A stretch of 64,000 nt of DNA from Apostichopus japonicus. Lineage: Eukaryota > Echinodermata > Holothuroidea > Aspidochirotida > Stichopodidae. Position numbers and translations under genes: made by a program. The stretch lies in the NCBI RefSeq assembly GCF_037975245.1, contig NC_092579.1, positions 2,905,001 through 2,969,000 on the forward strand, in the 5' to 3' direction. Numbering within the stretch: position 1 is the first letter of the stretch; each line of letters starts with the position of its first letter. The notes beneath the pieces are model-generated. The model was not told the DNA's origin. It searched no databases and worked only from the letters and a program-made list of their open reading frames with translations. Below, piece by piece: positions 30,501-64,000 of this stretch.

Positions 30501-31313
30501 ACACCCGTCTAGAATAGTAAAATATTGTGTACATTATATATACTCAACTTGATAGGCGTATGAATAAACATTATGTTGTTGTTTTGTTTATATGAAGACG
30601 TATTAGTTTCACCCTCCTACTGTGAGATCTTTCTTAGGTATAAACAGGTGTATTTTCTTTGTTGGTTTGTGTGGATTCCCTTTTATTTAATTGTTGTTTA
30701 TAATTGTTGTACTTGTCTTAGTAAAGGTGGTGATGTATATACATATTCTCGTAATATAAGTTTTTTAATTATCAGTCTTATGTTAAACTTAGCATTTAAA
30801 AATTTACTTTCACATTATTTTATAACATTAGTGTCAGATTAAAACTGTAAAACACGCAAGTTTGCATTTTACCCTCATATATTCATGTGCTGAAATTATT
30901 CACCCGTCTATTATACACCCGTCTAGAATAGTAAAATATTGTGTACATTATATATACTCAACTTGATAGGCGTATGAATAAACATTATGTTGTTGTTTTG
31001 TTTATATGAAGACGTATTAGTTTCACCCTCCTACTGTGAGATCTTTCTTAGGTATAAACAGGTGTATTTTCTTTGTTGGTTTGTGTGGATTCCCTTTTAT
31101 TTAATTGTTGTTTATAATTGTTGTACTTGTCTTAGTAAAGGTGGTGATGTATATACATATTCTCGTAATATAAGTTTTTTAATTATCAGTCTTATGTTAA
31201 ACTTAGCATTTAAAAATTTACTTTCACATTATTTTATAACATTAGTGTCAGATTAAAACTGTAAAACACGCAAGTTTGCATTTTACCCTCATATATTCAT
31301 GTGCTGAAATTAT
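30501..31313. repeat. Perfect 414-bp tandem duplication
   Basis: 30501-30914 is followed by a second copy starting at 30915. I see no difference between them over about 400 bp. Units B and C have one copy (43900-44300), so the doubling is recent and specific to unit A. Confidence 0.92.
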
Positions 31314-31344
31314 TTAACTTAATCTTTCAATTTTTGTAAAATGT

Positions 31345-34285: not shown

Positions 34286-36163
34286 TACCGGCATGAGACG
34301 TTTCTTTGTGCGCGAGTTCTTCACACCCTTTAAAGGAGGATTCACTGTTTGATATCTCAAACACATTGTTTCATTCTTTCATGGAATTTTCGGCCGTTCA
34401 TTCACTACTCTTTCCGTACATACAATTATATTCAGCTTCTCATGCATATATAGATAATTCACTAATTAGCGAGTAATTGCCTGAAGAATCATGATTGACA
34501 GGTTTTTTTCGGCGGCCATTACGTATTTAAATTTCCACCCAATTTCCCAGTAGCCTACTTCATAATTCATGAGCGTTTCAAACGGCCAATGAGCAGGAAG
34601 CAAGTATTTGCAAGTGAGCCCTAGTGAACACCAGTGAGCCCTTGAAGTAGTATTAGCAAGCACAAGGGTACATGTGTATCCAATCTCTGCAGTATAGAAC
34701 TGTAATACTTCACGGGGAATACAACCATATAGGTAGGCAGCACACTTGATGCAAAGACAACATTGATTGGAAGCCATACAGACGAAAGTTGCCCCCTCCC
34801 CTAACACAGAGGAAAGCAAGAAAACGAGATCAATGTTAGAAGTCTGACGTTCAAAGGTTGAGATTTGGAAGGAAATTGTCATATGGCAATCGTTAGAGAT
34901 GGCGAAAGGTTTTAGTTCCGACGTACAGGTGGCCAAATTACTTCTTTCCAGGTTTGTACCTATATGGTTAGGTTCAGTGGCTTCGCCAAGGGTATACTGG
35001 GGGGCTAGGGGTGGGTGGGCACGTGCCCTCCCAAACAAAAATCGTGCCCCCAAGGTGCCCCCTATAGATGCGATTTCTAGTGTTAAAAATTTCCTTTCCT
35101 TTCCAGATTCTTTAGCAAGGTTTTACGTCAAGTATGGAGCTTGTCCCTGATAAAATATACAAAATTAGCAATATTTTCAAGTTTGTATAAATCAGTATGA
35201 GGAACTGGCCGCCATTTTGTATTGTCAAACATTGAAGTTGGTATACGGTCTTGTTCAAGGCCAGGCCCTCTCACTCGACCTCACAACACTGTCCATTGGT
35301 AACTTGTCACACCCACACACCAAAGTGTACACAATTTAAACAAGAGGGCAATCCACGGAGTTGAATATCTCATCACAAACAATTGATTTCAAATGAACAA
35401 ATTTATTATTAGCTATGCAATCTGGAAAAACGTTTTTAAAGAAAACATGACTACATTCTTAAAATACACATTTGACATTTAACCACCTGACCTTTGACAT
35501 TGGTTTCCATGGCAACAACATATTTTGATAGTACTTGATATTTTCGTTATACCTGTGAAGGTTCCATGTCAACTCTATTTTTTTCCCTTGGAGTAATAGC
35601 AAAGATAAATTTTAACTATTTGTTTTACCTTTCATCTTTGACCTTTTCTTCCTGGGGTCTGCGAGACACAAGGGTTCACCAAGTTTGAGAAAAATCGGCC
35701 CACCCATTTTAGGAGGTCTTTTTATTATTAACACAACATTTTTCAGAAACAATCATTGAATGACACAATGACAAACACACACATACCCAAACCCAAACGC
35801 TCGCACACGTTTTAATCAATCCCTCAGTCATGGACTTCTGGTCACCATGGTTAAACCCCCACCTCCAGAGTAGCTACTCAAGATAACCAATCATTACCAT
35901 GCCAACTGTTGCTATGGCAACTGACGTAGCCGTATATGACCCAACTGTCAAAGGAACTACAATATCTGCTCCCGCTATGGGAGCGATGAGATAAAAAACA
36001 TTCCTGGGGCACTTGCATTAATGTGCAACTTTAACGCTTACTATTTTTAATATTAAAAATATGTATTATCAACCAACTATGATTTTTCTTTTAGTCCCCA
36101 GAATGTTGCAACAAAAGTCAACATTGAAGCCACTTTATATACTTTATCCGAAGGCCAATATAT

Positions 36164-40437: not shown

Positions 40438-41884
40438 TATTGGGATCATTATTAACATGATTAACATAATTATTAAGCTTTGAAAAATAACTTGGTGTCA
40501 TGCTATGCAAAGCTAATAATTATTTGGTAAAGCTGCTATTCCTGGCTTATAATTTGAGGGACCTAGATTAAATGTATACCTCCCAATATGTTATAAAATT
40601 TTAATGTAAATGTATGTTTATGATAATGTGGGTTATCATGTGCTATATCTGTATCTGTGCTTACACGTATATCATCTTTTCTGTTCACAGGTCAATAATG
40701 GTGCAGATTTTGGCTTCCTGAAGACAATTGGGAGGCCATTTGTAGTTAAGAGAAACACTCTTTGTTCGTGAAGACTTAACTGGTGTCGATTTGGGGTACC
40801 ACTTTAAAACGAAAGTCATGAGGAACTCTTGCCCAAGATTCAACTTTGCATTATTGTGCAGTGCTATACTTTTGCGATTCATGTTTGATCCATTAACTTG
40901 TCTTAACTTTGTTGGAATAAAATCATATTATCAGATTTTTGTTTACAGTGATTTCTTCTCTATCTGTCGAAAGTCAGCCTATGTAGACATCAGAAGTTTT
41001 ATCAGAAATAAATACTGCCAACGTACACATTATTTGTGTTTCTTCTGCTCTCTTTTCTTTCAGTGATGCTAGTCAGTGAAACTAGTCGGGTTTAATTCTT
41101 TCAGTGATTCTAGTCAGTGCAACTAGTCAGTCGATACCGACTAAGAAAGGTTAGTCGGGAGAGGCACCATCCTGACTAATGTAAAACCTGCTATAAACTA
41201 GTCGGTGGCTCATATAAATTAGTCGGTAAAGACCGACTAATGTCACCAACTAATGTAACTTACTAATATACATTTACCGACTAAGAAATTGTTGATCGAC
41301 TTAGCTGACGGACTAAGATGACCGACTAAGAAATCCAACTGACTAAGGAATAAATTAGTCGGTATAGCAACTGACTAAGGCTATGTTAGTCGGGAGAGGC
41401 ACCAGATGGACTAACGTTATGTTAGTCGGTGAACCAATTTAAGTTTTCAGTGTAGACAGGGGCGTGCACAGCATTTCAACTGGCCGGGTGGGGTCACCAA
41501 AAGTTCGCACCTGAACCTTCACGGAAGGGCCAGAGGCGGATGAAGGATATTAAAAGGGGTGTTATCCTGAGGTCATTGAAGCCGACAGCCATGTAGGTAT
41601 GGGGCACTTCCCAGAAGAAACAAAAGCTTCAAATTCTGCCGATATTGAGGCATATAGAGTGGTCTGGGGGATACAAACCCCAGAAAATAATTGAATTGAG
41701 ATGTGATGCGAAGCGTGACTTTGCAAGTATCTGATGTGTTTATGAGCGTCGTGTACACTGGAGTATATGATTTACTATTCAATAATATAATGGTTTACTT
41801 ACTGATAAATCCCTTTCTTTGTCTTCTAACATTGCATATATTGCCATTCTTTACAACCACTCTTGACTGTTTGGTCTTCTGCAG

Positions 41885-42637
41885 GATATTCGAACATATT
41901 GCCGAGAAGACGGTTACCTGGATAGTGATCGACTTTATGACATGGCAGACCAATTAGATTCAGTACTCTCTCACTTAACCGACCAGATCAGTTTATATTC
42001 GTCCCAGGGAGGTTTGCTTGGCAACCTGTTAATCGTATCTTCGTTTATCCCGTCACCTCTAAGAACTGCCCTCTTTTACTACGGTGGATACTTGACTTTG
42101 GGTTCTAGAGTTGGGCACATCAGTAACTTAGTTTTGAAAAGCATTAGAGATGATATAAATGAGGAAGAACTGAACGGCACCCTCTTCCGAATGCGTAAAG
42201 GGCATCACAACATCGAAGTTTATAAGGTAGCACGTAAAGGCATCGACAGTCTACCTGCAGCAGCATCAGCAGCAAAGTTACTCATGAACGGCAAAATGCT
42301 TCTCAGCGAGGAAGAGTCACAGAAGATCATTCGCAGACTTCACAATATTGAAAAGATTGTGCCATCGATTTTGAAAGGCGAGAAAATAGACCTAGATGAC
42401 CTTTTAGAACTATGCACCAATTTATACGAGATCCTTGATCATTTCGACGCACTTACCATTGTTCGAGAAACTTGGCAGAAAGTTAAAGGGCAGATTTATG
42501 AACTGAAAAAGGGTTCAACGAATGCTGTTGGATCGTTCAAAGGGCACAAAAGTGCCATCAGTTCAGAATTGAAGAGCGTCCTCGGCGGTTCTTTTCAGTT
42601 ACTTGGCTCAAAGGTTATTAAACTTTACAGTATTTAA
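41885..42637 (+). CDS. Unit B exon 3 (hairpin exon)
   Basis: Starts [20 protein letters not shown] after the CTGCAG acceptor and remains open for 250 codons to TAA. It is closely similar to unit A exon 3, with the same apolar hairpin ([21 protein letters not shown]). Confidence 0.7.
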   Translation, partial: DIRTYCREDGYLDSDRLYDMADQLDSVLSHLTDQISLYSSQGGLLGNLLIVSSFIPSPLRTALFYYGGYLTLGSRVGHISNLVLKSIRDDINEEELNGTLFRMRKGHHNIEVYKVARKGIDSLPAAASAAKLLMNGKMLLSEEESQKIIRRLHNIEKIVPSILKGEKIDLDDLLELCTNLYEILDHFDALTIVRETWQKVKGQIYELKKGSTNAVGSFKGHKSAISSELKSVLGGSFQLLGSKVIKLYSI

Positions 42638-44413: not shown

Positions 44414-44573
44414 CTGTTATTGGGGGATGTGCTAGTTTGGATGATGTTATTCAACTATAGGCCTAACGTGAGGCCTTCCACAGGAAAAGACAGACAACAA
44501 CTTCATAAGGCACATTATCATGAATGATAAAGGCTATTATTTTATTCACTAATTTTTATATGGTGTGATTATC

Positions 44574-47167
44574 ATCAGCAATAACTTATAAGAATCCTGT
44601 AGAAACCGAACAATTTTACCAAAATCTTGAAGATCTACTAAATACTGTCAATAAAAAAGAAGTGATTATATGTGGTGATTTCAATGCAAAAGTTGGCTCA
44701 TCAAATCCTTTCTTTCCTAAACATATTGGAAAATACACCACTGGAAATACTAATACTAATGGTGATTTCTTAACAGACCTAATTGTACGTAATGATCTAT
44801 ACTTATGTAATACTTTCTACAAACACAAACTTGAGCATATCAACACTTATACAAGTAATTTTATACCCAATAATCACAGAAACCCAATCAGGAGCCAAAT
44901 TGACTATATCATAGCCCCATTAAACTTCAAAATTATTAATATTGATGCTCGAGCTTATAATGGCCTTCATATTAACACTGATCACAAAATCATTATAAGT
45001 AGTTTCACCCTGAATAGCTCAACAAGAAGACAAATTTATCCAGTCAATAAGACTGTTGAAAGAAGTAATTCCTGCCATCTTAAATCAAACAAAATTAACT
45101 ATAATGAAAACGTATTTAACACATTAAACGAAACCAATTTTTCCCAATCACCAGCTACGTATTGGAAGGAACTGTCAACAGTTTGTTTAAACAATGCCCG
45201 AAACTTAAATCCACCAACAAAAAAAGTACGTTTTAATAATACTAAAATAGCAAGCTTATCCAAGAAACAAAAAGACCTAAGACTACAGATTGACAACTGT
45301 AAAGATATTGATCAAAAGAGAAATTTAAAAACTAAAAGGAACAAAATAATTAAACAACAACATTTTCTAGTCAAAACTACCCATGAACAAAAATTAATTG
45401 ACGATATTTCCGAAATTGAAAATTGTAAGGATGACTCCCATCGTTTCTTTAAAGCAATAAGAATAGTACAACAAAAGAGTAAGAGAGACCCTATTACAAT
45501 TAAAATTGGCGATAAACATATAGGAGATACCGACGCAAAAATTAAAGAAATCAGCAAACATTTCGAAAAGACTTTTAACTGCAATATTCCAGATCCCAAA
45601 CCAAACGTGTTTCCAGAGAAACTAAACACGCCCTTTGATGAAGATGAAATTAAACAAGCAGTCTCATCCTTAAAAAATAATAAAACCCCAGGTTGTGACA
45701 AGGTCACAGCCGAACATCTCAAATATGCCCCATGCACACACAAACACATAGCAAATATCTTAAATAGTATAGCCGAATCAGGAGATTTCCCAATTGAAAT
45801 TAAACAAGGAATCCTAACTCCTATCCAAAAACCGGGAAAGACTAAAGGTCCACCAGAAAACTTAAGACCAGTAATTTTATTATCAACACTGAGGAAAATT
45901 CTTGCGGTTTGTGTGGCCAGGAGGATTCGTCCGTCAATTGATGAGCATATCCTCCCCATTACCCAAACTGCCTACACTTCAGGACGTTGCACAGCTGAAC
46001 TTGTCTTCGCTTTTAAAGTGTTAGCAGAAAAAGCTATAACATCCATAGGTTACACTATAAATCTATTGATGCTAGATATGAGCAAGGCGTTCGACACAAT
46101 TCAAAGAGGATCCTTGCTAACTGACCTAGAACAGGTTCTTGACAACGACGAACTTCACCTGATATCACTACTAATCGATAACGTCTCCTACACCGTCAAA
46201 TTAGAGGGCAAACTAGGACTTCCTTTTAACACTAACATTGGTTCACCACAAGGAGATAGTGCAAGTGCACTATTTTTTATAACTTATCTAGCCAACTCTA
46301 TGAAATCAGATGATAATGATATCGATGCAGTTATCCTCCCATCGCAGTTAGTTGATCATGATTACAGCACTACCACCACTAATTCTTTTTTCACAGTAGA
46401 CCAACAATACGCTGATGATATCTCTTGGGCATCAACTGGTCAGCATATACTGCAAGACATCGAAAAACGAGTCTCTGACAAACTGGCAGTAAGAAATCTG
46501 AAAATCAATTGCACAAAAACTGAGAAATTTACAATCACAAGAAAAGGAAATGACAGTTGGAAGAAATGTAAATATGTTGGAAGCTTGCTGGGAACCGAAG
46601 AAGACATTAACAGAAGAATTGGTATAACCAACGGTGCTTTCAACACACTGTCAAGCATTTTTAAAAGCAAAAACATAAGCCGGAAAATTAAGCTTAGGAT
46701 CTTTGAGACTTTATTAAAGAGTATTTTTTTGTACTATTGCGAACTGTGGGGCACAACGAAGGATCTTGATCGCAAAATTGACACTTTTCAAAGGAGACTA
46801 CTTCGAAATATTCTCAACATTAGATGGACCAATAATAATTGGTTATCAAATGATGAGCTCTACAACGAAACCAACCAAACACCTTGGTCATCGATAGTCG
46901 CACATAGAAGATTGAGATTTTTCGGTCATGTAGCAAGACTCCAAGAGGACGCTCCAGCAAAGGTTGCTCTAAGAGAAGCACTGAGACATACTGCTAAACC
47001 AGTTGGAAGGCCCGTGACTACCTTGCTTGGAAAAATAAAGTCGCAATTCAAGGACATTAATATTAACAGTTTCGAGGAAGCAATAAACCTTGCGCAAGAT
47101 CGTAAAACGTGGCGGAGGTTAATAACTGAGCATGTCGAATAGACGAGACTCAACTTACTACTACTAC
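44574..47167 (+). mobile_element. 5'-truncated non-LTR retrotransposon, unit C only
   Basis: Inserted into unit sequence with the duplication ATTATC (44568-44573 and repeated at the right end before TCAGAGACC). The element ends with a short (CTA)n tail after its stop codon. Its reading frame is already open at the first base, so the 5' part including most of the endonuclease is missing. Unit B (31605-31625) shows the uninterrupted site. Confidence 0.9.
44575..47142 (+). CDS. Non-LTR endonuclease C-terminus and reverse transcriptase
   Basis: About 855 open codons with no internal stop. The endonuclease remnant has ICGDFNAKVG, QIDYII and NTDHK. The reverse transcriptase has NNKTPGCDKVTAEHLKY, NLRPVILLS, LMLDMSKAFDTI, GSPQGDSAS and the catalytic YADD (QQYADDISWAS). 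The C-terminus has RLRFFGHVARLQ, a block common at the end of several non-LTR clades. There is no ATG near the 5' boundary because the element is truncated. The open frame indicates a recent insertion. I do not assign the clade. Confidence 0.92.
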   Translation, partial: SAITYKNPVETEQFYQNLEDLLNTVNKKEVIICGDFNAKVGSSNPFFPKHIGKYTTGNTNTNGDFLTDLIVRNDLYLCNTFYKHKLEHINTYTSNFIPNNHRNPIRSQIDYIIAPLNFKIINIDARAYNGLHINTDHKIIISSFTLNSSTRRQIYPVNKTVERSNSCHLKSNKINYNENVFNTLNETNFSQSPATYWKELSTVCLNNARNLNPPTKKVRFNNTKIASLSKKQKDLRLQIDNCKDIDQKRNLKTKRNKIIKQQHFLVKTTHEQKLIDDISEIENCKDDSHRFFKAIRIVQQKSKRDPITIKIGDKHIGDTDAKIKEISKHFEKTFNCNIPDPKPNVFPEKLNTPFDEDEIKQAVSSLKNNKTPGCDKVTAEHLKYAPCTHKHIANILNSIAESGDFPIEIKQGILTPIQKPGKTKGPPENLRPVILLSTLRKILAVCVARRIRPSIDEHILPITQTAYTSGRCTAELVFAFKVLAEKAITSIGYTINLLMLDMSKAFDTIQRGSLLTDLEQVLDNDELHLISLLIDNVSYTVKLEGKLGLPFNTNIGSPQGDSASALFFITYLANSMKSDDNDIDAVILPSQLVDHDYSTTTTNSFFTVDQQYADDISWASTGQHILQDIEKRVSDKLAVRNLKINCTKTEKFTITRKGNDSWKKCKYVGSLLGTEEDINRRIGITNGAFNTLSSIFKSKNISRKIKLRIFETLLKSIFLYYCELWGTTKDLDRKIDTFQRRLLRNILNIRWTNNNWLSNDELYNETNQTPWSSIVAHRRLRFFGHVARLQEDAPAKVALREALRHTAKPVGRPVTTLLGKIKSQFKDININSFEEAINLAQDRKTWRRLITEHVE

Positions 47168-50200: not shown

Positions 50201-50999
50201 CTTACAACTCTAACCCCTGTCCATTGGTAACTTGTCACACCACACACCAAAGTGTACAAAATATAAACAAGAGGGCAATCCACGGAGTTGCATATCTCAT
50301 CACAAACAAACGCTGATTTCAAATGAACAAATGTATGATTAACTATGCAACCTGGAAAAACTTTTTTGAAGTAAACGTGACTACATTCTTAAAAATACAC
50401 ATTTGACATTTAACCACCTGACCTTTGACCTCGGTTTCCATGGCAACCACATATTTTGATAGTACTTGATATTTTCGTTATACCTGTGCAGATTCCATGT
50501 CAACTCTATTTTTCAACTTGAAGTAATAGCAAAAGATCAATTTTAACTATTTTTTTCTACCTTTGACCTCTGACCTTTGCTTCCTGGGGTCTGCGAGACA
50601 CAAAGTTTCATCCTGGGGTACTTTCCTACCAAGTTTTAAAAAAAATCTGCACACCCATTTTAGGAGGATTTTTTTTGTTTACACACGATTTGTCACAAAC
50701 ACACACATTGAATGACACTCTCTTAAAATGATAGACTGAATTTTCCAGTGTAAAGTGCGATTGAAATTTTTTTCAGTGCATAAGACTGAGTTTAGACTGA
50801 AAACCAGTCCAAATAGTATGAAGAGTCCGTTGCACAGCTCAATCTGTGTTTACACTGAACGTAATATCCAATCATATCGTTCAATTTTGTCACGGGATTG
50901 CGTCGATTTCAGTCGTTCTGTTCCACTGAAATGACGTCCAATCAGAAATGTAATACATGATCACGTGATCTTGATATTTGCATTATTACAATAGCTGAG

Positions 51000-51129
51000 C
51001 GGCGACCGCGACCGCGACCGATAGCGCATTGCATGCAGGCAGGGAAATGCACACTGTACATACGCACGTAAGTACGGTGGGTAAGGTACTCGTACGTGAC
51101 ACGTAGTACTAGTACTTGGACGTTGCAAA
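51000..51129 (+). promoter_or_regulatory. Likely promoter/5' UTR of the EnSpm-type element
   Basis: A CpG-containing stretch with (GCGACC)n repeats around 51001-51020 and repeated ACGTAC words directly upstream of the first ATG (51130). It is markedly richer in CpG than its surroundings. Promoter function is inferred from position. Confidence 0.3.
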
Positions 51130-54100
51130 ATGGCAGAATCGTTAAGAACGTTTCTTACGAAGAAAGGCTTTGATGAGGAAATCCTTACGCAGTTTGAGGG
51201 TATGTTATTCTTTTGTTTAATTTATATAAAATGTAAGCAGGCACAGTCGTGTGGCTTAGCCTGCGTGTATATTACATTTGCAGTTTGGAACACTGAACAT
51301 GATGTTGACTGGAGGTAGGCCTAGTAAGTTAGGCCTAACAGTAACATAGGCTCACTGGCTAGCAAGAATTAGGGGCCTACTGTACATAGTAACTAGTGAG
51401 TTAGGCATAGACTCAAGACTGTCAAGTTCGTCCTAACGTTAGTCCTGGCATAGCCTAGGCAATTAAACGTAGCATAGACAAACTGTTTTCGATTGTTCTG
51501 TCTTGGCATATACTCTAATAATTTTTTTTGTGTATGCACGAAGTAACGTGAAAGACTGAACTCGATTGAAGCACTCCCACCAAGATAATCGACAACCAGA
51601 GACTAGCTAGGCGATTATCTTGTTATGCAGGCCGGAAAAGTTGCAAAAAAAAAAATAACCTTGCTTTGCATAATAAAATATTAAAAGAGTTTGTCGTATT
51701 TGTCAGAGACTGTGAAGTTTGTTACAGAGCATATGTACGGCTCTGGTATGTTATATTACTAGACTGCAACCAGCGTGTTTTTATCCGCGTTTTGAGCTAG
51801 ACATTTGATATGCATTGTTGCTCTGCATAAGGCGATTCATTGTTCAAATAAATCTGTGCACATTCCAAATTTCGTTGCGGTAGACATGTGTAGTCAGGCA
51901 TCGTATATTTGAGGCGATTGTGCATCATTCATTGCTGTTTACAGTGACTGTAAAATATAACAATAGTCTACCTGGGGAGAGAGCAGTCGGACAAAAAAAT
52001 AATTTTCATTTCCCACGTAGAAATTATACAGTCGCAACTCGTTCAAATGGTGAAAAATAATCACATAATTAAATGACTGCAAGTATTGTTTCATTGCTTT
52101 TTTGAATGATAAGTTTGGTGTAGGAATAGAACCCCAAAGTACAATGGTTTCATTTGCCCAAAAGTCAATAAACTTATAAAGGAAAAAATATGACTACACG
52201 CACGTAGAATACTGCAGTAGCTGTGCATAGACGTGTACTATACTAACAATACTATAGTGTGTGCACGCGAACGTTGTTCTTTACACTGAACTGTGTACAA
52301 CATGATACTGGCGCGCTGTACAGTGACAACCACTAGCTTGTGATTGTATGGGTTTAACAAAGTATTTTGCACAAACCAATATTAAAATTCCATATTAAAT
52401 TATATTGTATCAATCTTCAGTTTCACTGGTGTAGGCTGCAAATTACTCGGTGAAGCTGCCAGAAAACAGTGTGTGATTCGCTCATACTGATCATGCTGCT
52501 TTGATGTATAGGGAACTATCAAAAAAAGTAAATATATTTTAAAGGGCTCACAATTTGTGTTTTCACGTTCTTGCGCAACACAATGTAGCAATATACCTAC
52601 ACTTACACACTGTGATACATCAATATATACCAGCAACCACTCCCCATTTCTCTTTTTTTTTTAGAATGCAGTCAACTTGACAAGATGTTTTGGTAACTTG
52701 TGACCTAACCGTACTAGAATGCACTAGAAAATGGGATTTATTTGTTTCAAGTGTGGACAACATATAAGTGGGAGGACAAGAGAATTAGGATATCATCTTC
52801 ATGCATTTCACACAGTTGTAGGCTCAGGTGATCACCTAACTTGTGGACAAGATGGATGCATGAAGACATTCACCATAATTAATTCCTACTTGAGTCACAT
52901 AAGGCATGAACATGCACCGCATCAGAATGAACAGATTGTTGGGAATAATTTAAATGAAAATAACCGGCATAATGATTTCAATCATGAAATTGACGATTTA
53001 CCCGAACCAGAATTTGAAGAGAATGACATTTTTCAAGAAATGGAGCCTGAAGTTAATGGCCATGCTTTGGACTACCTAGAAGGTTTTGATCATGAATCAC
53101 TAAAGAAGCTAGCCGTTCATTTGATTATAAAGTTGAGGTCTACCTGTTCAATTTCATTCTCATCAATACAAACAATTATTAGTGGTACAAGCGATGTGTT
53201 TAGATATGCAGTTTCCTCTCTACAGCAGGATATGTTGCGCTTGATGGAAACACATGGAGTAGATATCAATGCCCCAGATGTAGGTAACCTTTGTGCAAAA
53301 TTTAACTTGTTTGAAAATCCGTATGCTGGTATCGAAACAGAAAGAAAACAGGCTACATACATGGTCGAAAACTTAATGTTGGTCAAACCAATTCAGATTG
53401 CTTTAGGAACACGGTTTGAACAAGCAGTTGAACGGAAAACTGGTGAAATTGTACAGAAGGTAGTAACTGACAGCTTTCAATATATTCCTGTTGCTGAAGT
53501 TATTAAACTTATTTTGAGTCAACCTATTGTTAGAGAGTTGATTGAAAATGAAGAACACTCTCCTGAAAATTTTCTCCGAGGTTTTCAGGATGGCACACTA
53601 TACAAACAATCTGGATTTTTTAAGGAACATGCATGTGCTCTACGTTTACAACTATATTATGATGATGTAGAGGTAACAAATCCACTTGGCAGTAAAATTG
53701 GTGTTCATAAACTGGCTATGTTTTATTATTCAATCCAAAATCTACCAAGGCGTTTCAATTGTACAGCAAGTAGCATTCATTTGCTGGCCGCTTGTTATTA
53801 CCAGGATGTGGCAAAATATGGCTTTGAGCCAATTTTGGCACCATTTATTGAAGAAATGAAACACTTTGAAAGTGATGATGGTGTTCAGCTTATGATTGAT
53901 GGAAGAATGATCAATATTCATGGAAGTTTGGTGTCATATAGTGCGGACTCATTGGCAGCACATGCATTACTTGGTTTCATGAGCCCCTCTGCTAATAAGC
54001 TTTGCAGGTTATGTTATGCCTCACGTGATGATATTCAGAACTATTTTCTTGAAGATGATTTTGAGTTGAGAACAATTGATAGTCATGATTTAGATGCAGA

Positions 54101-57100
54101 AGAAGCTTCTCGACAAGGATTCAGAGACCCAAGAACTGGTGTAAGAAGCTATTGTCCTCTAAACACCTTGCGAAATTTTCACAGTGCTACCAACTTTAAC
54201 TTAGACATCATGCATGATATGCTTGAAGGTGTATGCCCTTATGAAGTTAAGTTATTGCTCCACCAGTTTATTTATGTGGATCATTTTATAACTGTAGAAG
54301 ACTTCAATCAGTGATTGAAGGCATTTCGTTTCCCTTTCAATGATAGAAAGAATAAGCCATCGGCAGTAAAACCTGACCGCCTTCGAAATATTGCAGACCA
54401 CAAGTTAGGGCAAAAGGCAGTGCAGATGTGGTGCTTAACTAGAATGCTTCCTCTTCTCATTGGCAGTAGAGTTCCTTACAACAATGAATACTATGAATTG
54501 CTTTTGCTATTACTTCGATGCATGGATATAATTTTTGCTCCTGTAATCTCCACCTCTCATACCGTTTATCTGAAACATCTAATAATGGAACATCACGCTC
54601 AGTTCAAGTTGAAATTTCCAGGGCAACGTTTTATCAACAAACAACATCATATGGTTCATTATCCTACTTGCATGAGAATGTCTGGACCTCTGACTACACT
54701 TCAGTGTCTCAAATATGAGATGAAGCACTCATTTAGTAAGAAGATTCCTGCCATTAACTGCAACTTCAAGAATATATGCCAATCAGTCACTCTAAAGCAT
54801 CAGATTATGCAATGTGCTGTATGGTCTGGCAGTGGTCTACGCCTTGACTTTGAATGTGCTGGAGGAAATTTAACTTCCATTGATTCACTAGCAGGAAGCA
54901 GGGTTATTGCAGAGCATCTACAAGTTGCTGAAGATACAGAAATATTTGAAGCACGTCAAGTGTCACTTTTTGGTACAGACTATAAGCCAAAATTATTTCT
55001 AGCAACAGATATGGTCGAGGACATACCACAATTTGGTCGTATTTGTAGCATTTTGGTTCGTGCACAGACACCTGAATCTGTTTACTTTGTAGTCCAGAAG
55101 TGGCGAAACAAAGGATTTTCCCCTCACTTTCATGCCTATGCAGTGACAAATTTGGACAACCCAGAATTCTCCATTGTACAGCTTGAGTCTCTCTTAGATT
55201 TCCATCCACTGTCAGGTTTAACCTCATATGAACAACATTCACCACTTTATCTGTGTCCGAGATACACCCTCAGTCAGATTAATTGAAGGTATATCAATAG
55301 TGTCTCTCTTTATTTCTAAACACAATAGTTGCAATTTATACACATGCTTAAAAAATGCTAAATGAGTTCTGTAGAATTGGTTTTTAATCCCCCAAGTTTT
55401 AATACACAAGTGCACTTGTCTTGCATAAGTCTCACGTCTTGCTAGTTGCTTTAAAAAATATCAAATTAACATATTTTCACTGCACTAGTGATTATAGTAT
55501 TTAACATTCATATTTGGGTAAAGCAGTGTAAAAAAAGGAGAAATGATTAAAAGATTTCACATCAGTTATCAAAAGATCAAACCATGTTTGCTATCAAAAC
55601 AGACTTCCTTTGTTGATAACATAACCAACTTTTGTGGTGAGCTGTTTTTCCTCACCATTAGCTGCTGCAAAGAAAACCTTTTTAATGTGAATTGTGTGCC
55701 ACATAGAAATTATCTTCTGTAGAAACTTATGCCGCATGTGTCTGCATTCTTCTCGTTTCAAGCTTCACCTAATTTTAACATTTTGCACTTCCACTTGTAG
55801 AAAATGATGTTGACATGGAGGTTTTTGGAAGCATGTCTGAAGAAGATTTCAAAGAAATTGGAATAACATCATTTGGAGTACGAAGGAAGCTATATATAGC
55901 CATTCAACAATGTAAGACAGATAAGGAAGAGGTAATGTGTGTATTTCGTTAATTGATTTTTTTTTTGGGGGGGGGGGGGGATCACTACAGGTAATTTAGT
56001 CCCTTTAGAGTCCACACTCTTGACTTTGAGAAATTAAGAGGTTGAAAGTCTTTGAAGACTCTACAAGCCTTCCTAATCCAAATCATCAAAAATATATCTC
56101 TTTCCTCAGAAATATGCAATTGATATTAAATGCCTTTAATTGCCATGTAAGGTACTTGCTGTGTTAAACATATGTAAACATCATCACATATTCTATTACT
56201 GGTCCATGGCATTCAAACTGCACTTACATATGGAGACGACAAATCTATTACTGAGATGATATTTTCTACTCTTGATGGATTGCCTACAAGTTTGTGTATT
56301 CTTCCTTCTTACTGTCAGACTACCTATTAACCATCTTTTTTTTTCTTTTCAAAATGATCATTTCTTTTGTTGTAAGGATTCAGAGCCATCTGATCTTGGC
56401 TCAAGCTCTGTCTCACAATGGGATCCACAGGAAGAAGCATCTGTGTCAGGAAGTGGTCCTTCTGCAAGTTCTACTCCATGTAAGAAGATGAGGTCTGTGT
56501 CCCCAATCATGGTAAGTCCAGTTCTCACTTACTTTACATTTGCATTATTTAGTTTTAAACTGATTGGAAACATTGTGCCTGCAAAGCCCCTGTATATAAC
56601 TCCATTTTGACGTAATGGTTTTGCACTGAAATTCTAAGGAAAAAATAAAACAGAGGGCCTTAAAGCCTCAAGAGGTGCCAAGTACAGCTCTTTTAACGAG
56701 ATGCATATATACATTGGTAATGAGTCAAATGTTCAGGTATTTTGCACTTTGGTCCAATTAATGAATTCTTAAAGGAAACACTCTCTGAAAGATTCACTAC
56801 ATGCAAGACAGGTCTGCAGTGCTTTCAAACCTCTGAAACCAGAATAGAGTGGCAATTAACTGAAGTAATGAGTAGTGATAGTATAAATGCTATACAACCA
56901 GTGTGTGATTAATAACATTTACTAATTTAGAACCAGGTAGCCTATTCAAGGTCAATTTGTTTGTGTCTTTTTTTGCTCAGAATGTGGCTGCTACTGCTAG
57001 GTAAACATTAACCAGATGCATCTTGATTTCATTCTTTTTTAGAACTTTGGTCTGAAAGAAATGATGCTTAAACATTCTGAAGGAAAAGTTTTGGCCAAAC

Positions 57101-60100
57101 AATTAGAGAATGCTGAAGTTTTGACAGATCAGTGTAGAAGAACACTAATACGCTTGACGGTAGCTTGCCTTATAGAAAAGACTGGTGACCTGTAAGTAGT
57201 ATTAGATCAGTATCTTTGAGATACTGTTATGCCAGTGGCCAACTCTTTTCAGTATGAGGACCCTCTGTAACACTGCTAAGCATTGAGAAGCTAGTTTAAC
57301 TTTTCATATTTTCTATATGTTGCAAGATAACACTACTTTTTTAATGGAGTTCCTTCACTGTCTGCAAAATTGATTGCCTCAAATTTGATCTAGGAATCTT
57401 TGGTTTCTTCTATAGGTATCCATCATCAGAGCAAAAAACACTACTGGCAAAAGAAATCATTGCAACATTTCCATCGGTTAAAGACACTACACGGGGAATG
57501 AAAGGTTATGTAAGTATTTTACTTTGCAAACTTCTGTAGGAATTGAGAACATCAACGATTTGCTATGCCTTTAGCAGGTGCACCTCTCCCCTATCCCCTA
57601 CCTGCTGCCACTTCCTATATTGCCCATTAAGAAATTATGTGACACTTCAGGCAAGACTTCTGAAACTTGAAACATTCTCAGTTATAAATTAGACTTCATG
57701 ACAAGGTTGAAGGATTTCAAAAGTTGCACTAGTGCAAAGAACTTCGCTGTGACTCCTGAAATATTTAGAAAGAGGGAAACCATCAGCTGCAAGTGGTGTG
57801 TCAAAATCAAATATTTGTAATAATCAAATGACAAATACTAGTAACACCTGATGGTTTTATGTAATTTAAAGATGGTTTGATTAAAAGTTTCTTTGTATGT
57901 TGTGTTTTCACCATATGTCATACCAACAGTATTGCTATATTAATTGAAAATATAAGTATACAAGTTTATGTCATACTCAATCATAATATTATTTCAGTTG
58001 AATGATTAATTTAAATATCATAGAAGGTGTGACGTTTCCATTTGGAAAGTTTCTCTCTTATTTTCAAAGACCATTGAAGTCACTAAGATACATTGACATC
58101 GATTCCTTTGTTGATTTTTTTTTTCACTGTGGCAAGTTGCTACATAAAACAATAGCATGTCTACATGCGTTCCTTGTATACTCTAGGAACAGTTTTATGC
58201 AAATGGTCAGGGATTCATAGAATATCGTCTGAAGAACCTACGATCAACTCGACCAAAGGAGGAGAAGAGAAGGACAACAAAAAGACAACCCTCGAGTCAA
58301 CCATTGCCAGCTGAAGAAGAGGAAGATCATTCAAATGATCAAGAGCTTGCTGAAATGGTATATATTTTACTTTAAGTGTTAGAACTCATCCTATATGCTG
58401 GTTGAAGTAGAGATTATGCAATAATTAGAGTATTTAAAGATCTACTGTATTGACCCCAGATATAGCATGTATCACTAAAACAATTCTTGCGGTTATGTTA
58501 TCGACCTGCCATGGTCCCAAAATTTTCCTAATTTGGGCCAATACAGCATATCTTTAAGAAGGGTCCACCGAAGTTCCTACAGTTAGTCCGAGGTACAAGA
58601 ATATGCAAATGTAATAATTTGTTGAAAACCAGAGATTGCGTCAAGAAGCTTTATGTACTATTAGTTCGAAAATTAAATGTACTTTTTAAGAAAAGTCATC
58701 CAAGAAGGAACCTGGGCATGAAACTGAAACGAACGGTGCAACCGCCATGGCAACATTTGTCAAATGACCAACCTCTTGACCCCAGTCCCCCTACATTGGG
58801 ATCAGTGGACTGTGATCACAAGTAATTAGTGAGTTCTCGTCTGTTCTCATAGAGTTCACAATTTAAATGTATGTTATATTGGGCCCAAATATGATCACCA
58901 GCTGGTCAAAATTCTTAAACTATTTTGATTAGCACCCTTTAGGAAACTGACCTCACTGAGACAGTCAGTCATCTTAGGTTCATTTAGAACGTCTGAGAAA
59001 AATTTGGATAGAAAAGACCTCCAGGAAACTACATTATAAAAACCTCTAGCAATTATAGCTTGCTATCGCTTCTGGCCAATACAGACTTCCTTTAATTTCT
59101 CGAGGTTACTTAGGTATAATTGGGGCCAATACAGCAGATTTGCAAAAAGGGTACTCCAAATTTCCCACAGTTAGTCCTAAGTACAAGAATATTGCAATAA
59201 AACATTTTTTTGAAAACCAGAGATTGCATCAATTTACATACTATTTGTTCACAATTTAAATTTCTCCAGGTTAATTGGATGAAGTACACACCTCCTTTGC
59301 AAGACAACAAGAACAGGCACAGAGAGACATTCAAGGATACATTTACCTATAGGAGGAGGATGTTAGGTCAGCAGAATCTCACCATTACAGAAATGCTGAA
59401 ACAGTTCCGAGAATGCAAGACATGCATGAGTTGGTAATTAATTACAATTGATTTGCACTACATTGTTTAATGAGTATCAACATAATTGGAGAATGCAGTA
59501 ATATTAATGAACTGACTTAAAATAGCAGCCGGTCTTTATGGAGTTATTTAAAAGGCAATTTTAAGTAGTAAAACTTGCTTTAATGCCATTTTGGCCTTTG
59601 AGAATGTGAGTGATGGTGGCCTGTATAATATTCAAACTACTATGGAGCCAAACTAGTTTTGTGTACTACAGTGCTCAGATAACTGAGTTGCTGAGTAACT
59701 AAGTTGTAACTTAGAGTAGCCGCTGGGAATGGGTATGCTGTACCACAACAACATGTCCAGAGGGCCATGCCATGAAAGGAGCATCAGCACATCATCAGTG
59801 TAATGCTATAAGCCTCAAACAGTTCTTGACTCTTTAAACCTGCACTGCTCAGGCCAATGCCCTAATCACCATAACTCTCACTAATGTAACCAAATATCCC
59901 AAGAAATAATAACGTTAAATGTATGTATTTAAACTTTTTTTTGAAGTAGGAAATACTTGACAATGCTCCTTTTGTTATGAAAGGTTTCTCAAGCCAGACA
60001 CATTCAGTAGTCTATTAGGGTCCCATGAGCACAATTCAGGTCCACTGAATGCCACTTGGCTCCTGCTTTTAAAAGCACCCATTGGTCATGGTCGAGAATC

Positions 60101-60809
60101 ATGTGGTTCACTCACATCCGGTAAATGGAACATAAAACGACTGTCCCCGGAGCAGGATGGGATCAGCTACCCTTAATCGCAATATCATGAGTGCACAAGT
60201 CAAGTTTTGCTGGTTCCACATGACAATAACAGTCTCTCTTGTTTCTCTTCCTTTCAGATCAATGTAGAATTTGACTTAATGTATCCTGAAAAATCCCAGA
60301 ATTTCCTGACTAAATGGGATGCCTACTTCAAGAAGCGTATCATAGCTGTAGGAAAGAAGTTTTCAACAGCTGTGGCCTTGCTAATCAATTCTTTTGATGA
60401 GTGTGACAGTAAGTTTGATCATTTTTGTTCAAGTATGTTGGGGTAGTAGGTTTGACGTAAGTCTGTCCTATGGCATTGGTGTGTTCATTCAGAGAATAAT
60501 GCCTACATTAGAAAGAAAGACTGCCTTAAGCTCTTGGAATTTTTAGATGTGCCCTTTTATTAGTTAATTAGAGAGGCACTGTAAAAGTTGTGGGAGGTGG
60601 ATGGAAAATCTCCATACCATTTGAACTATGGTGCATTTCTGTGATGTTCTAATTCTTTGGTATTGCTTCTTTTCATTTTAGAAGACATCTGTGCAATATC
60701 TGCTCTTATCTACATGTTGCACAGATCTGTCAACATGAAGAGGTCCAGTTATGGGAAGCTGGCAACTAGTAGATCTGGAGCTGTCCTGTACTTTATACAG
60801 AATATACCT
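51130..60809 (+). CDS. SAM-domain protein, SAMD3-like, carried by the transposon (at least nine exons)
   Basis: Exons 51130-51199, 55801-55931, 56377-56511, 57043-57191, 57416-57509, 58187-58357, 59270-59433, 60258-60408 and 60682-60809, all with GT/AG borders. Exons 1-2 form a sterile alpha motif (FLTKKGFDEEILTQF, then GSMSEEDFKEIGITSFGVRR). Exon 3 is Ser-rich with a basic patch (CKKMRS). Exons 4-9 resemble the body of SAMD3-type proteins (LYPSSEQKTLLAKEI, FPSVKDTTRGMKGY, DTFTYRRRMLGQQ). Phases agree except at exon 7 to 8, where TG joins ATC and makes a stop; one base seems lost, so this copy may be decaying. The first intron (4.6 kb) contains the whole transposase gene. Further exons are expected beyond the LINE insertion. 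Confidence 0.72.
52731..55286 (+). CDS. EnSpm/CACTA-type transposase with C2H2 zinc fingers, one in-frame stop
   Basis: 851 codons in one exon, broken by a single TGA at 54312-54314. Two N-terminal C2H2 fingers are readable: C5-x2-C8, H22-x4-H27 and C38-x4-C43, H56-x4-H61. An acidic linker follows. The central part has LMIDGRMINIHG, a CxxC pair (KLCRLCYAS) and LDIMHDMLEG (residues 491-500), the acidic D..HD..EG block seen in animal CACTA transposases. The downstream half (from AFRFPFNDRKNK) continues in frame after the TGA. The assignment is by motif, not alignment. The gene is nested in intron 1 of the SAM-domain gene, on the same strand. Confidence 0.75.
55287..55800. other. Segment between transposase and SAM exon 2
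   Basis: Serves as transposase 3' UTR and the end of SAM intron 1. No other feature was seen apart from the CTTGTAG acceptor. Confidence 0.5.
58537..58690. repeat. Intron 6 direct repeat, left copy
   Basis: Matches 59125-59275 (shared phrases GGGCCAATACAGCA, ACAGTTAGTCC, GAAAACCAGAGATTGC). The right copy runs up to the exon 7 acceptor. Confidence 0.75.
58690..58828 (-). mobile_element. Body of the U2-headed SINE family, 5'-truncated
   Basis: Shares with 49165-49290 the ordered words GAAAAGTC, GAACCTGGGCA, CCCCAGTCCCC and GACTGTGATCA. The U2 head is missing. Located in intron 6 of the SAM-domain gene. Confidence 0.65.
59125..59275. repeat. Intron 6 direct repeat, right copy
   Basis: Counterpart of 58537-58690. 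Ends in the TTTCTCCAG acceptor of exon 7. Confidence 0.75.
59434..60257. other. Intron 7 of the SAM-domain gene
   Basis: No recognised element. Ends in the CTTTCAG acceptor of exon 8. Confidence 0.5.
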
Positions 60810-61004
60810 GTAAGTAAAACCTGTAATGAATTAATGGATTTTTACAAGGGGCCACTGAAAAACCATGCAAATAAGTGATGCTTTCATCACACTGTTAATA
60901 GTAATACCAGTATCCAACCTACCTATAGTGCTGATATCATCCCCCATAGTCTGCAATAACATCTTTCCAATTGTGAATTTCTTTCTAAACAGAACACATA
61001 CATC

Positions 61005-61580
61005 ATGCATTGCAGGATTGCACTGGGCCTACTGCTGTTTGGGATGGGTCTGCTGTTATATTTTACTGTCCATACTGTGGGAATCAGGGAGGCTGATACT
61101 GGTAGAGATATGTCATCTTGTTATATTCCAAGCTCAAGGTCAGTCAGTATTCTTTCTTATCTTATCTCAAACATAGGTAAAAAGGGTAGATATGTTACAG
61201 TCCACAGTAGTTCGTACACCGGACCCATTACCTCACGTCGCAAACTGGTGTATTTATCCTTGTTACTTGTGCTGGCAGGGGACATCGAATTAAATCCTGG
61301 TGCAGGTTTTTATTGTGGTATTTGCTGTAAACTAGTCAAAAGGAATGACAAGGCTTTTCAGTGCGACGAGTGTGACAAGTGGGTTCACATTCGTTGCGGT
61401 AACATCACAAAAGAGGGTTATAGGGTGTTGCAATTGTCCGACTTTGTTTGGATTTGTCCAAACTGTAGCAACCCCAATCTGTCAGCCACATTAGGGGTTT
61501 CTGCTTCCCAAAATGAACTTAATCTAAGCAATAGCTTTAGTGCCTTGGATTCGCTTCCTAGTAATGATCCCCCCCAGTGA
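61005..61580 (+). CDS. Non-LTR retrotransposon ORF1 with 2A-like motif and PHD finger
   Basis: 191 codons from ATG 61005, with an upstream in-frame stop at 60957. The N-terminus is apolar. At 61278-61304 it reads GDIELNPGA, the 2A ribosome-skipping core D-x-E-x-N-P-G but with Ala in place of the final Pro. A PHD-type zinc finger follows at once (CGICC...CDECDKWVHIRC...WICPNC). PHD and 2A-like modules in this arrangement are known from CR1-type non-LTR elements of marine deuterostomes. ORF2 starts at 61564 in the +1 frame and overlaps this ORF by 17 nt. Confidence 0.8.
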   Translation: MHCRIALGLLLFGMGLLLYFTVHTVGIREADTGRDMSSCYIPSSRSVSILSYLISNIGKKGRYVTVHSSSYTGPITSRRKLVYLSLLLVLAGDIELNPGAGFYCGICCKLVKRNDKAFQCDECDKWVHIRCGNITKEGYRVLQLSDFVWICPNCSNPNLSATLGVSASQNELNLSNSFSALDSLPSNDPPQ

Positions 61581-64000
61581 GTTGCCCCATGGCCGGGGCC
61601 CGATAACCAAAGTGCCTAGCAAAAGGCAAACTGTGAACAAGATCGTCCTTGCTTCAATTAATATCAATGGTGTCAGAAGTAAAAAACTAGAGCTCCAAGC
61701 CTTTCTGAATACTCATAGTCCCGTTGTGGTAGCGCTCCAAGAAACCAAAATTGACAGTTCTGTTGGTTCACAAGAGCTCCTGCCTGCTACTTTGGGGTAC
61801 GTCACTTTTAGAAATGACCGTACCATGGGAGGTGGGGGTACAATGTTGCTGATTAAGAAGCAGTTGCAACCGGTAGCGGCTCCTTTCCTCACAAATGGCT
61901 CTGAATCTGTTTGGGCGAAGTTCACTGTAAATGGTAGTTGCCACTATGTTGCTTCCTGGTACAAGGATCCTGATGCTCTTTCTGATCATATCAACTTACT
62001 CAGAGAGCAACTGAACATGATCACAGCAAAATACCAAGCTGGTAGACAACCATGTTTTCATGTCCTAGGAGACTTTAACTTCAGTAAAATTGACTGGTTT
62101 ACTAGACTGAACAAGAAAAGTCTAAACTGTTTAACTCAAAGTTGTGGCAAACCATTGTTAGATATCATCGATGATTTTGCTGCGGACCAGCTAGTCAGTT
62201 TCCCCACTAGAGGTGAAAACACCTTGGACCTCGTTATCACTAACACGCCTAGTCAGTACGAGGAAGTTAAGTTTTCATCCCCTATGAGTGACCATGACAC
62301 GGTCCTTTGTACACTGAAGTGTTTTCGGCCCTATGATAGACAGCCACGTAGACGTATCTTACTTTACTCTAAAGGCAATTATGATGCCATGCGTCATGAA
62401 ACGAGAGCTTTCACTCAAAATTACTTCAATGGGTTACAGAACAAACGGGATATTGAATCAAACTGGAAACTCATAAAGTCATTCTTAGACAGTACTGTCA
62501 AAAGAAACATACCTTCAAAGATGTCTTCAGGTAGGAAGTCATTACCATGGGTGTCCATCCACATTCAGAGACTCATCAGAAGGCGCGACAGACTGCATAG
62601 TCTGTACAAAAGAACTAGTAAGACCAATATCTATGACAAATGGGTGGAGATGCGCTCAAGAATAAAGAAAGAAATTAGAGCTTCACACACAAATTTTGTA
62701 AATGGCATCCTGGGGGATGTCAAAACTGACTGTAAGCCCTTTTGGAAATACATAAATGGTAAACGTAAGGATAAATATTGCATTCCTCCACTGCAGACTA
62801 AGGACAAAATAGTGTTCAGTGACATAGATAAAGGTGAAGCTTTCAATGAGCAGTTCTCCAGTGTTTTTACTAGGAATACCCCAGATGAAATCCCATTACA
62901 AAGTCCTTTGTGTGTGAGGATGGATGACATTCATGTCTCCACCTTTGGAGTGGAGAAGCTGCTGCGGGGTTTGAAAACTTCAAAGGCTGTGGGGCCAGAT
63001 AACATGCATCCTTGGGTACTAAAGGAACTGGCTACTGATATTGCTCCAACTATCAGCCATCTTTTCCAGCAATCAATCACTGATGGGAGACTACCTAGGG
63101 ATTGGAGAACTGCTAACATCTGCCCCATATATAAGAAGAATGATGTATCCTCGCCATGCAATTATCGCCCTGTTTCCCTTACCAGTATCTGCTGCAAGCT
63201 CTTGGAGCACATAATCAGTTCTAATATCATGGAGCATTTCCAGAATAATAACATCTTGACTGCTAAACAGCATGCATTCAGGAAATACCATAGCTGCGAG
63301 ACCCAGCTCGTTTCTGTCATCAACGAATGGGCCTCCTCCCTTGACCAAAGAAAGCAAGTGGATGTCTTCATCCTTGATTTTGAGAAGGCTTTTGACACTG
63401 TTCCTCACGAATTATTGAAATCTAAACTGTACACTATGGGTGTTTCACATCAGGTTCTCTGCTGGGTGGATGCTTTTCTGAGTGATAGAGAGCAGTCGGT
63501 TGTTGTCAATGGGTCTAGGTCTAATCCTTCTAAGGTTACTTCCGGTGTTCCGCAAGAGTCATTTTTGGGACCCATTCTCTTCCTGGCCTACATAAATGAT
63601 ATTGGTAATGCTGTTTCTTCTGGTGTCCGACTGTTCGCTGATGACTGTGTCTGTTATCGGGTTATCGATGATGTCAGTGATGGTCATCAACTTCAGGAAG
63701 ATATTAATATACTAGGGCAATGGGCTAAAGATTGGGGCATGAGTTTCCAGCCGGTGAAATGTAACATTATGACCATTACTAGAAAGAGGAAACCTGTGAA
63801 TTTCAATTACATGCTCAATGGGGTTCACTTGGTTAAGGTTGATTGTGTTAAATATCTGGGTATTCATATCACTTCAGATCTCAACTGGGGAAAGCATATT
63901 CAAAATGTGTGTAACAAAGGCAATAGGATATTGGGAGTTCTTCGTAGAAACTTATCCCCTTGTTCGAAGGATGCAAAATTGGCTGCATATAAAGGTCTCC
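61564..64000 (+). CDS. Non-LTR retrotransposon ORF2: endonuclease and reverse transcriptase (runs off the window)
   Basis: 812 codons with no stop to the window edge, starting MIPPSELPHGRG. Apurinic-type endonuclease motifs: ASININGVRSKK, ALQETKID, GDFNFSKIDW, MSDHDTVLC. Reverse transcriptase motifs: SKAVGPDNMHPWVLKEL, NYRPVSLTSICCKLLEHI, FILDFEKAFDTVPHELL, SGVPQESFLGPILF (usual PQGS changed to PQES) and the catalytic FADD, then KYLGIHITSDLNWGKHI. The order and motifs fit the CR1/L2 group. The open frame indicates a young element. It lies downstream of exon 9 of the SAM-domain gene and interrupts the EnSpm-type element. Confidence 0.93.
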   Translation, partial: MIPPSELPHGRGPITKVPSKRQTVNKIVLASININGVRSKKLELQAFLNTHSPVVVALQETKIDSSVGSQELLPATLGYVTFRNDRTMGGGGTMLLIKKQLQPVAAPFLTNGSESVWAKFTVNGSCHYVASWYKDPDALSDHINLLREQLNMITAKYQAGRQPCFHVLGDFNFSKIDWFTRLNKKSLNCLTQSCGKPLLDIIDDFAADQLVSFPTRGENTLDLVITNTPSQYEEVKFSSPMSDHDTVLCTLKCFRPYDRQPRRRILLYSKGNYDAMRHETRAFTQNYFNGLQNKRDIESNWKLIKSFLDSTVKRNIPSKMSSGRKSLPWVSIHIQRLIRRRDRLHSLYKRTSKTNIYDKWVEMRSRIKKEIRASHTNFVNGILGDVKTDCKPFWKYINGKRKDKYCIPPLQTKDKIVFSDIDKGEAFNEQFSSVFTRNTPDEIPLQSPLCVRMDDIHVSTFGVEKLLRGLKTSKAVGPDNMHPWVLKELATDIAPTISHLFQQSITDGRLPRDWRTANICPIYKKNDVSSPCNYRPVSLTSICCKLLEHIISSNIMEHFQNNNILTAKQHAFRKYHSCETQLVSVINEWASSLDQRKQVDVFILDFEKAFDTVPHELLKSKLYTMGVSHQVLCWVDAFLSDREQSVVVNGSRSNPSKVTSGVPQESFLGPILFLAYINDIGNAVSSGVRLFADDCVCYRVIDDVSDGHQLQEDINILGQWAKDWGMSFQPVKCNIMTITRKRKPVNFNYMLNGVHLVKVDCVKYLGIHITSDLNWGKHIQNVCNKGNRILGVLRRNLSPCSKDAKLAAYKGL

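Follow-up and report, generated by a model that had tools for sequence, protein, structure and literature searches.

The 64-kb stretch of the genome of the sea cucumber Apostichopus japonicus analysed here, referred to below as the window (C19:2905001-2969000), harbours a DNA transposon which carries two genes, one coding for a transposase and the other for a protein with a SAM domain, the former lying within the first intron of the latter. This layout belongs to the transposon itself: one pair of termini surrounds both genes, the genes move jointly, and the nesting is kept in three families. The element is probably (about three chances in four) a member of the CMCT clade (EnSpm/CACTA, Mirage, Chapaev, Transib, RAG1) whose two genes would form one alternatively spliced unit, with a SAM protein playing a part similar to that of TNPA in maize. 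Unless a contig is named, coordinates are positions within the window (Table 1); the genome searched comprises 671.6 Mb in 35 contigs, and two of its proteins match A. japonicus at 99% and 95%.

The transposase search of this genome yielded 309 candidates, of which 82 were scored, and 12 loci were examined for the partner gene, the 11 further loci being compared with the window copy over stretches of 13.5 to 25 kb. These loci are distributed among family A (the window copy, C14 and C19b), family B (C3m, C22m and C7m), family C (C10 and C17m) and a distant set (C1, C8, C12x and C7x).

The ends of the element read CTCTCTTAAAA and are accompanied by a 2-bp TA or CA target duplication. In the window copy, CA flanks the element on either side, and the final two bases of the interrupted host repeat, CA at 50716-50717, represent the target duplication; the start, originally placed at 50716, has to be moved to 50718. 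Because the paired ends of other copies show CA to be the duplication, the apparent CACTC start consists of the duplicated CA followed by the CTC of the element, which rules out a CACTA element on the basis of its ends. When the two flanks of the window copy are joined, the alignment crosses the junction into both empty copies of the repeat (83% over 871 columns and 86% over 544). The 3' terminal repeat of this copy, TCATTTTAAGAGAG, ends at approximately 67438, outside the window and past a long interspersed nuclear element (LINE), which was inserted after ~60991 and separates the copy from its own 3' terminus. The span previously closed at 60809 was too short, the tenth SAM exon and the 3' terminus both lying beyond the window, behind this LINE. 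The two other family A copies, C14 and C19b, are located on different contigs and share 99.8% identity along 14.9 kb; on either side, their similarity stops immediately beyond the 2-bp flanks of CTCTCTTAAAATGA...TCTCATTTTAAGAGAG, the 3' ends of the copies reading TCTCATTTTAAGAGAG. A 2-bp flanking duplication is found at 8 of the 8 loci, among the 12, for which both ends were found: TA in C14, C19b, C3m, C7m, C22m, C10 and C8, and CA in the window copy. The duplication of C7m carries no weight because this copy sits in a TA microsatellite. The element begins with CTCTCTTAA in the window copy, C14, C19b, C3m, C7m, C22m and C10. Families A-C have the terminal dinucleotides CT..AG, and the distant C8 family, with the ends CACTCTTAAAA and a TA duplication, has CA..TG.

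The order SAM exon 1, one-exon transposase, SAM exon 2 occurs in 7 of the 12 loci (window copy, C14, C19b, C3m, C22m, C7m and C10), which span the three diverged families A, B and C, with later SAM exons following exon 2. In C17m, later SAM exons are present; the search for exon 2 found nothing, and the stretch compared would not extend far enough to include exon 1. Core exons of the partner lie downstream of the transposase and on the same strand at all 12 loci, the E-value of the best single exon, in searches confined to the locus, being 5.9e-18 for C12x and no better than 3.3e-4 for C7x; in C12x, no partner exon occurs within the first 4.3 kb downstream of the transposase, and the partner is seen with 8 kb more. 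A transposase devoid of its partner gene was accordingly not encountered among the loci examined, one partner being recognised only weakly. As the original prediction expected, one pair of inverted termini encloses both genes, and these move as a unit, as illustrated by the end-to-end identity of C14 and C19b. Moreover, SAM exon 1 forms part of the inserted DNA; together with the flanks rejoining the empty repeat, this led to the rejection of a host SAM gene at a fixed location with a transposon inserted in its intron. Over the first 527 residues, the transposases of families B and C are respectively 61-64% and 54-58% identical to that of the window copy, and the nesting is old since the families keeping it are only 54-64% identical in transposase. 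Comparison of C14 with families B and C shows both proteins to be constrained (ratio of nonsynonymous to synonymous differences, pN/pS, 0.28-0.31 and 0.36-0.40, with saturated synonymous sites); against C8 and C1 the ratio amounts to 0.55-0.61.

The SAM gene of the window copy was originally described as having one exon upstream and another downstream of the transposase, which complete the same fold in the right phase, and this description holds. Joined in phase, exons 1 and 2 match Pfam SAM_1 with an E-value of 1.2e-9 and 38.8 bits (cut-off 23) over profile positions 6-64 of 64, i.e., a complete SAM domain by Pfam; since exon 2 alone covers only positions 29-64, exon 1 supplies the first half of the domain. 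Exon 1 agrees in length and phase with its counterparts from families B and C, exons 3-9 display GT-AG borders, and exon 7 measures 164 nt in the window copy and 165 nt in C14. The closest SAM sequences among solved structures are those of ANKS3, BICC1 and tankyrase, which are polymer-forming. The name SAMD3 is absent among the protein matches to the SAM protein, no SAMD3 sequence having been compared; the relatives named by protein matches come from Patiria, Antedon, Dendronephthya and Paramuricea. The octocoral relatives P0018 and P0033 (Paramuricea) and P0032 (Dendronephthya) match the window proteins at 58%, and at 41-42%, about as closely as other sea-cucumber families do, and horizontal transfer involving octocorals is possible.

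Concerning the transposase, the position of the one-exon reading frame and the presence of zinc fingers, located at the N-terminus, agree with the original prediction, and the frame itself is broken by an in-frame TGA at 54312-54314. With this stop and the frameshift in SAM exon 7, the window copy is a degenerate one; copies with an unbroken transposase frame are present elsewhere in the genome. The core has a predicted RAG1-like fold, the structural matches sharing only ~8-14% sequence identity. No family name was obtained from Pfam or NCBIfam. Transposase_21 (PF02992) does not figure in the table of matches of the window protein, nor, at E-values up to 10, among the families displayed (25 of 27) for a set of 23 transposases; weak matches to DUF4218 occur in five of these 23 (best 0.087), and to Plavaka in one (0.0057). 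No relative of the query P0001 was detected among the viral contigs scanned. The strict CACTA/EnSpm termini (CACTA/CACTG) do not occur in families A-C, C8 begins with CACTCTTAAAA, and the duplication has 2 bp at every locus with both ends instead of the 3 bp of strict CACTA/EnSpm elements. The label CACTA-type is therefore not supported in its strict sense, and the broader CMCT clade, including EnSpm, Transib and RAG1, is supported for the transposase. In this respect, the protein carries the CMCT motif set as defined in the cited sections of PMC12730594, the catalytic residues within this set being assigned presumptively.

A working scheme may be proposed on these grounds. A single transcription unit would start near the 5' end of the element. 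Splicing of exon 1 straight to exon 2 would give a SAM-domain protein of ~500 residues, and inclusion of a cassette exon of ~2.6 kb in intron 1 would give the RAG1-like transposase, whose frame would end approximately at the exon end, with the SAM exons following. The transposase would cut and join DNA at the termini, the SAM protein would use its SAM domain to multimerise on the GACTGA repeats near the termini and would gather both ends, as TNPA does for Spm, and the ratio of the two splice forms would set the activity of the transposon.

The repeated subterminal GACTGA words reported at the outset are indeed present at the element ends: the window copy contains 4 in its first 300 bp and 19 in its last 400 bp, versus 0.44 per kb inside, and the whole window shows no enrichment (31 found versus 25.9 expected). 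GACTGA is likewise crowded at the ends in families A and B generally. The arrays are dense and family-specific, with AGACTGA in A and B and AGATTGA in C (14 versus 0 inside), and a longer palindrome, AGACTGAAATTTCAGTC, is confined to the 3' end in family A and present at both ends in family B. The C8 family possesses GGGTCA-type subterminal repeats. The GACTGA repeats fit a TNPA-like partner, which would bind DNA and multimerise, and the gathering of the ends by a SAM polymer assembled on the subterminal array appears as its most likely role. Alternatively, the partner could be an anti-silencing, regulatory or host-interaction factor, the zinc fingers of the transposase alone binding the subterminal repeats, an explanation which has to be taken seriously even if we consider it somewhat improbable. 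The N-terminal fingers of the transposase would suit it, as would the domain search of the SAM protein, in which a DNA-binding domain was not recognised; dense family-specific arrays, as expected of a multimeric binder, and the resemblance to SAM domains which polymerise speak against it, neither being decisive. Also in favour of this alternative, partner genes of fungal CMCT elements are thought, as far as the cited sections of PMC12730594 go, to act on DNA methylation.

The single spliced unit of the proposed scheme finds candidate signals in the sequence. In family A, the donor TGAAG/GTATAT lies two bases past the transposase stop, in family B the donor TGTAG/GTAAG overlaps it, C8 shows GTATGT a few bases past the stop and C1 a weaker GTGTGT; a pyrimidine-AG candidate acceptor is located not more than ~100 bases upstream of the transposase ATG in families A, B and C. 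Among deposited protein models, P0030 joins the family A donor to SAM exon 2, P0036, as its sequence may be read, joins the family C donor to SAM exon 3, and P0031, a family C protein, has exon 1 joined to exon 2. In the Holothuria leucospilota models P0006, P0021 and P0023 and in the unnamed protein P0013, the transposase runs directly into the second half of the SAM domain at points which differ from one protein to another and derive from annotation; the fusion of P0006 could also be mapped onto the window exons. It is rather unlikely that the two genes merely share an element and depend on separate promoters, the donor at the transposase end being an artefact of annotation or of minor use. 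Neighbouring genes are frequently fused by automatic prediction, and the three Holothuria models join elsewhere in the transposase, as this explanation would have it, but each of three families has a donor close to or at the end of the transposase frame, candidate acceptors lie close to its start, and two deposited models use two of these donors.

A chance nest, produced when a transposon with only a transposase jumped into the first intron of a second element carrying SAM exons or of a SAM gene of the host, is very improbable, for although a gene within an intron is the expected look of such an insertion, and the position of the transposase before SAM exon 2 in families A-C and after a weak SAM exon in C8 might mean that it settled in different introns, intron 1 contains no pair of inverted repeats around the transposase that exceeds chance (three copies, one per family; best E 0.075), which led to the rejection of an independent nested element, the boundary common to C14 and C19b is the outer one, the nesting persists across the diverged families with SAM exon 1 inside the inserted DNA, and the empty site speaks against the host-gene version.

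Several observations nevertheless weigh against the two-gene, alternatively spliced unit with a TNPA-like partner. The splice forms are deduced from sequence signals and deposited protein models, and the family C donor, ACTAG/GTACAT, is situated ~17 codons before the stop of the frame itself, so that its position differs between families. The weak SAM exon of C8, with clean borders (SAM_1 E 0.018, below cut-off), stands just upstream of the transposase, so that the location within intron 1 does not hold for every family, and the C1, C12x and C7x loci yielded no SAM domain. Within family A the SAM gene looks relaxed, with a pN/pS of 0.89 between the window copy and C14, and of 0.55, from few changes, between C14 and C19b. 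Finally, no DNA-binding domain was recognised in the SAM protein, as mentioned above, and the structure model of this protein is poor (pLDDT, the predicted local distance difference test, 53.9) and was set aside for this reason.

With respect to known systems, the predicted fold of the transposase core suggests a likeness to Transib, ProtoRAG and RAG1, which have 5-bp duplications and, as partner, RAG2, unlike this element. In maize Spm, the tnpD frames lie within intron 1 of tnpA and the subterminal repeats are dense. The nesting of the transposase in a partner intron, seen here in 7 of 12 loci and with a splicing proposed from signals and deposited models, recalls this organisation, whereas the SAM-domain partner, the ends CTCTCTTAA instead of CACTA, the 2-bp instead of 3-bp duplication and the predicted C-terminal BAH-like domain depart from it. 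According to the cited sections of PMC1636069, one alternatively spliced unit of Spm gives tnpA and tnpD, a long transcript contains tandem open reading frames (ORFs), and both proteins are required for transposition. The same sections describe the Schistosoma element SmTRC1, with 2-bp direct repeats in 7 of 14 copies and termini beginning with CCC, as alternatively spliced, most expressed sequence tags skipping the transposase ORF and one transcript joining it to a second ORF; its TNPA-like partner PrA is presented there as having no relative found in other animal or fungal elements, and tests of its role are called for (PMC1636069). Compared by description, both are animal elements with a 2-bp duplication and a transposase ORF accompanied by a second ORF, but CCC termini do not occur here and the partner is conserved among sea-cucumber families. 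In the cited sections of PMC12730594, ESTA are EnSpm-like elements of fungi which have TA duplications and in some cases carry a gene for a TET/JBP dioxygenase, and Plavaka elements have TGT or CATCA termini, PlavakaA with 2-bp duplications. The CMCT transposase motifs are shared with both, and the 2-bp duplications of ESTA and PlavakaA match those of the present element, which, again by description, is an animal one whereas ESTA and Plavaka were described from fungi. Elements in which a transposase ORF is accompanied by a second ORF, with alternative splicing taking place around the former, are thus already known from maize (Spm) and Schistosoma (SmTRC1), as far as the cited sections go (PMC1636069). 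Among the open-licence papers of PubMed Central that were listed, no title or abstract deals with the present arrangement, and the family may be catalogued in Repbase; as far as that literature reaches, the new features are the SAM-domain partner, the conservation of the nesting between families, an animal element combining CTCTCTTAA ends with TA duplications, and a RAG1-like model for a transposase of this kind.

Table 1. Coordinates of the features of the nested element and its surroundings.
Feature	Position	Strand	Remarks
Host dispersed repeat holding the insertion	50300..50717	+	Repeats 25895-26285 and 35373-35766 lack the element and continue across the site
5' terminal inverted repeat CTCTCTTAAAATGA	50718..50731	+	Common to C14 and C19b; paired with 3' partner
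5' subterminal GACTGA words	50734..50914		50734+, 50784+, 50795+, 50909-
SAM exon 1	51130..51199	+	MAESLRTFLTKKGFDEEILTQFE, then G/gt; ATG to donor GAGG/gtatgt
Proposed transposase cassette exon	52665..55287	+	Candidate acceptor ...tttttttttttag before 52665; candidate donor AG/GTATAT after 55287
Transposase ORF, 851 codons	52731..55286	+	N-terminal zinc fingers, predicted RAG1-like core, BAH-like C-terminus
SAM exon 2	55801..55931	+	Second half of SAM domain; preceded by ...cacttgtag
SAM exon 3	56377..56511	+	
SAM exon 4	57043..57191	+	
SAM exon 5	57416..57509	+	
SAM exon 6	58187..58357	+	
SAM exon 7	59270..59433	+	One-base frameshift relative to C14
SAM exon 8	60258..60408	+	One of two models ends one base later
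SAM exon 9	60682..60809	+	
SAM exon 10	within C19:2970294-2970626		Beyond the window
LINE in the intron after exon 9	60992..64000	+	Runs beyond window end; PHD-finger ORF1; endonuclease/reverse-transcriptase ORF2
C8 locus (distant family, weak SAM exon)	L027:2956-3171		

Shortened relatives of the element also occur in the genome and are read as deletion derivatives. Among 112 candidates, 41 matches resemble the 5' terminus, consisting of the three family A copies and 38 sequences at 70-88% identity, and several last SAM exons have none of the 82 scored transposase matches anywhere near them. One shortened copy on contig C7 (L036) keeps the 5' end and late SAM exons, with no transposase seen and reverse-transcriptase-like frames inside. 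Termini ~81-84% like those of this element are found almost only on contig C7, at 12 places between 2.36 and 12.29 Mb, with one partial 84% match on C16, and five copies at 87-88% are clustered on C22 at 16.9-17.4 Mb. In the C1 family, a possible PB1 domain, PB1 being another self-assembly domain, lies just 3' of the transposase (L025:6135-6578, E 0.0062, below the Pfam cut-off), which is a lead only.

Elsewhere in the window, three + strand ORFs of ~250-290 residues (12085-12843, 27606-28469 and 41867-42637) look alike by eye and share a glycine-rich hydrophobic stretch, with no Pfam family at E 0.001; they may resemble apolipoprotein-L-like proteins. Frames like those of a long terminal repeat retrotransposon occupy 3447-7452 (-), with reverse transcriptase, RNase H and integrase zinc-binding domains at 4368-7214, an open LINE endonuclease/reverse-transcriptase frame of 857 residues extends over 44569-47142 (+), and a 414-bp unit forms two tandem copies with a 100% match at 30501-31314.

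The finding connects a transposase whose fold is predicted to be RAG1-like with a second protein from the same nested unit. With a partner kept across sea-cucumber families and present in other echinoderms and octocorals, endowed with a self-assembly domain and associated with dense end repeats, the TNPA analogy becomes directly testable in an animal element. On a broader and more tentative view, which we hold to be a possibility short of an even chance, a cassette-exon transposase in the gene of an oligomerising partner could be a standing architecture of an entire branch of animal RAG1-like (CMCT) transposons, the SAM-polymer partner being the conserved animal counterpart of TNPA which coats the family-specific repeats. 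If this were true, one splice choice would set the ratio of scaffold to enzyme, and the design known from maize would reflect either shared ancestry or a striking convergence.

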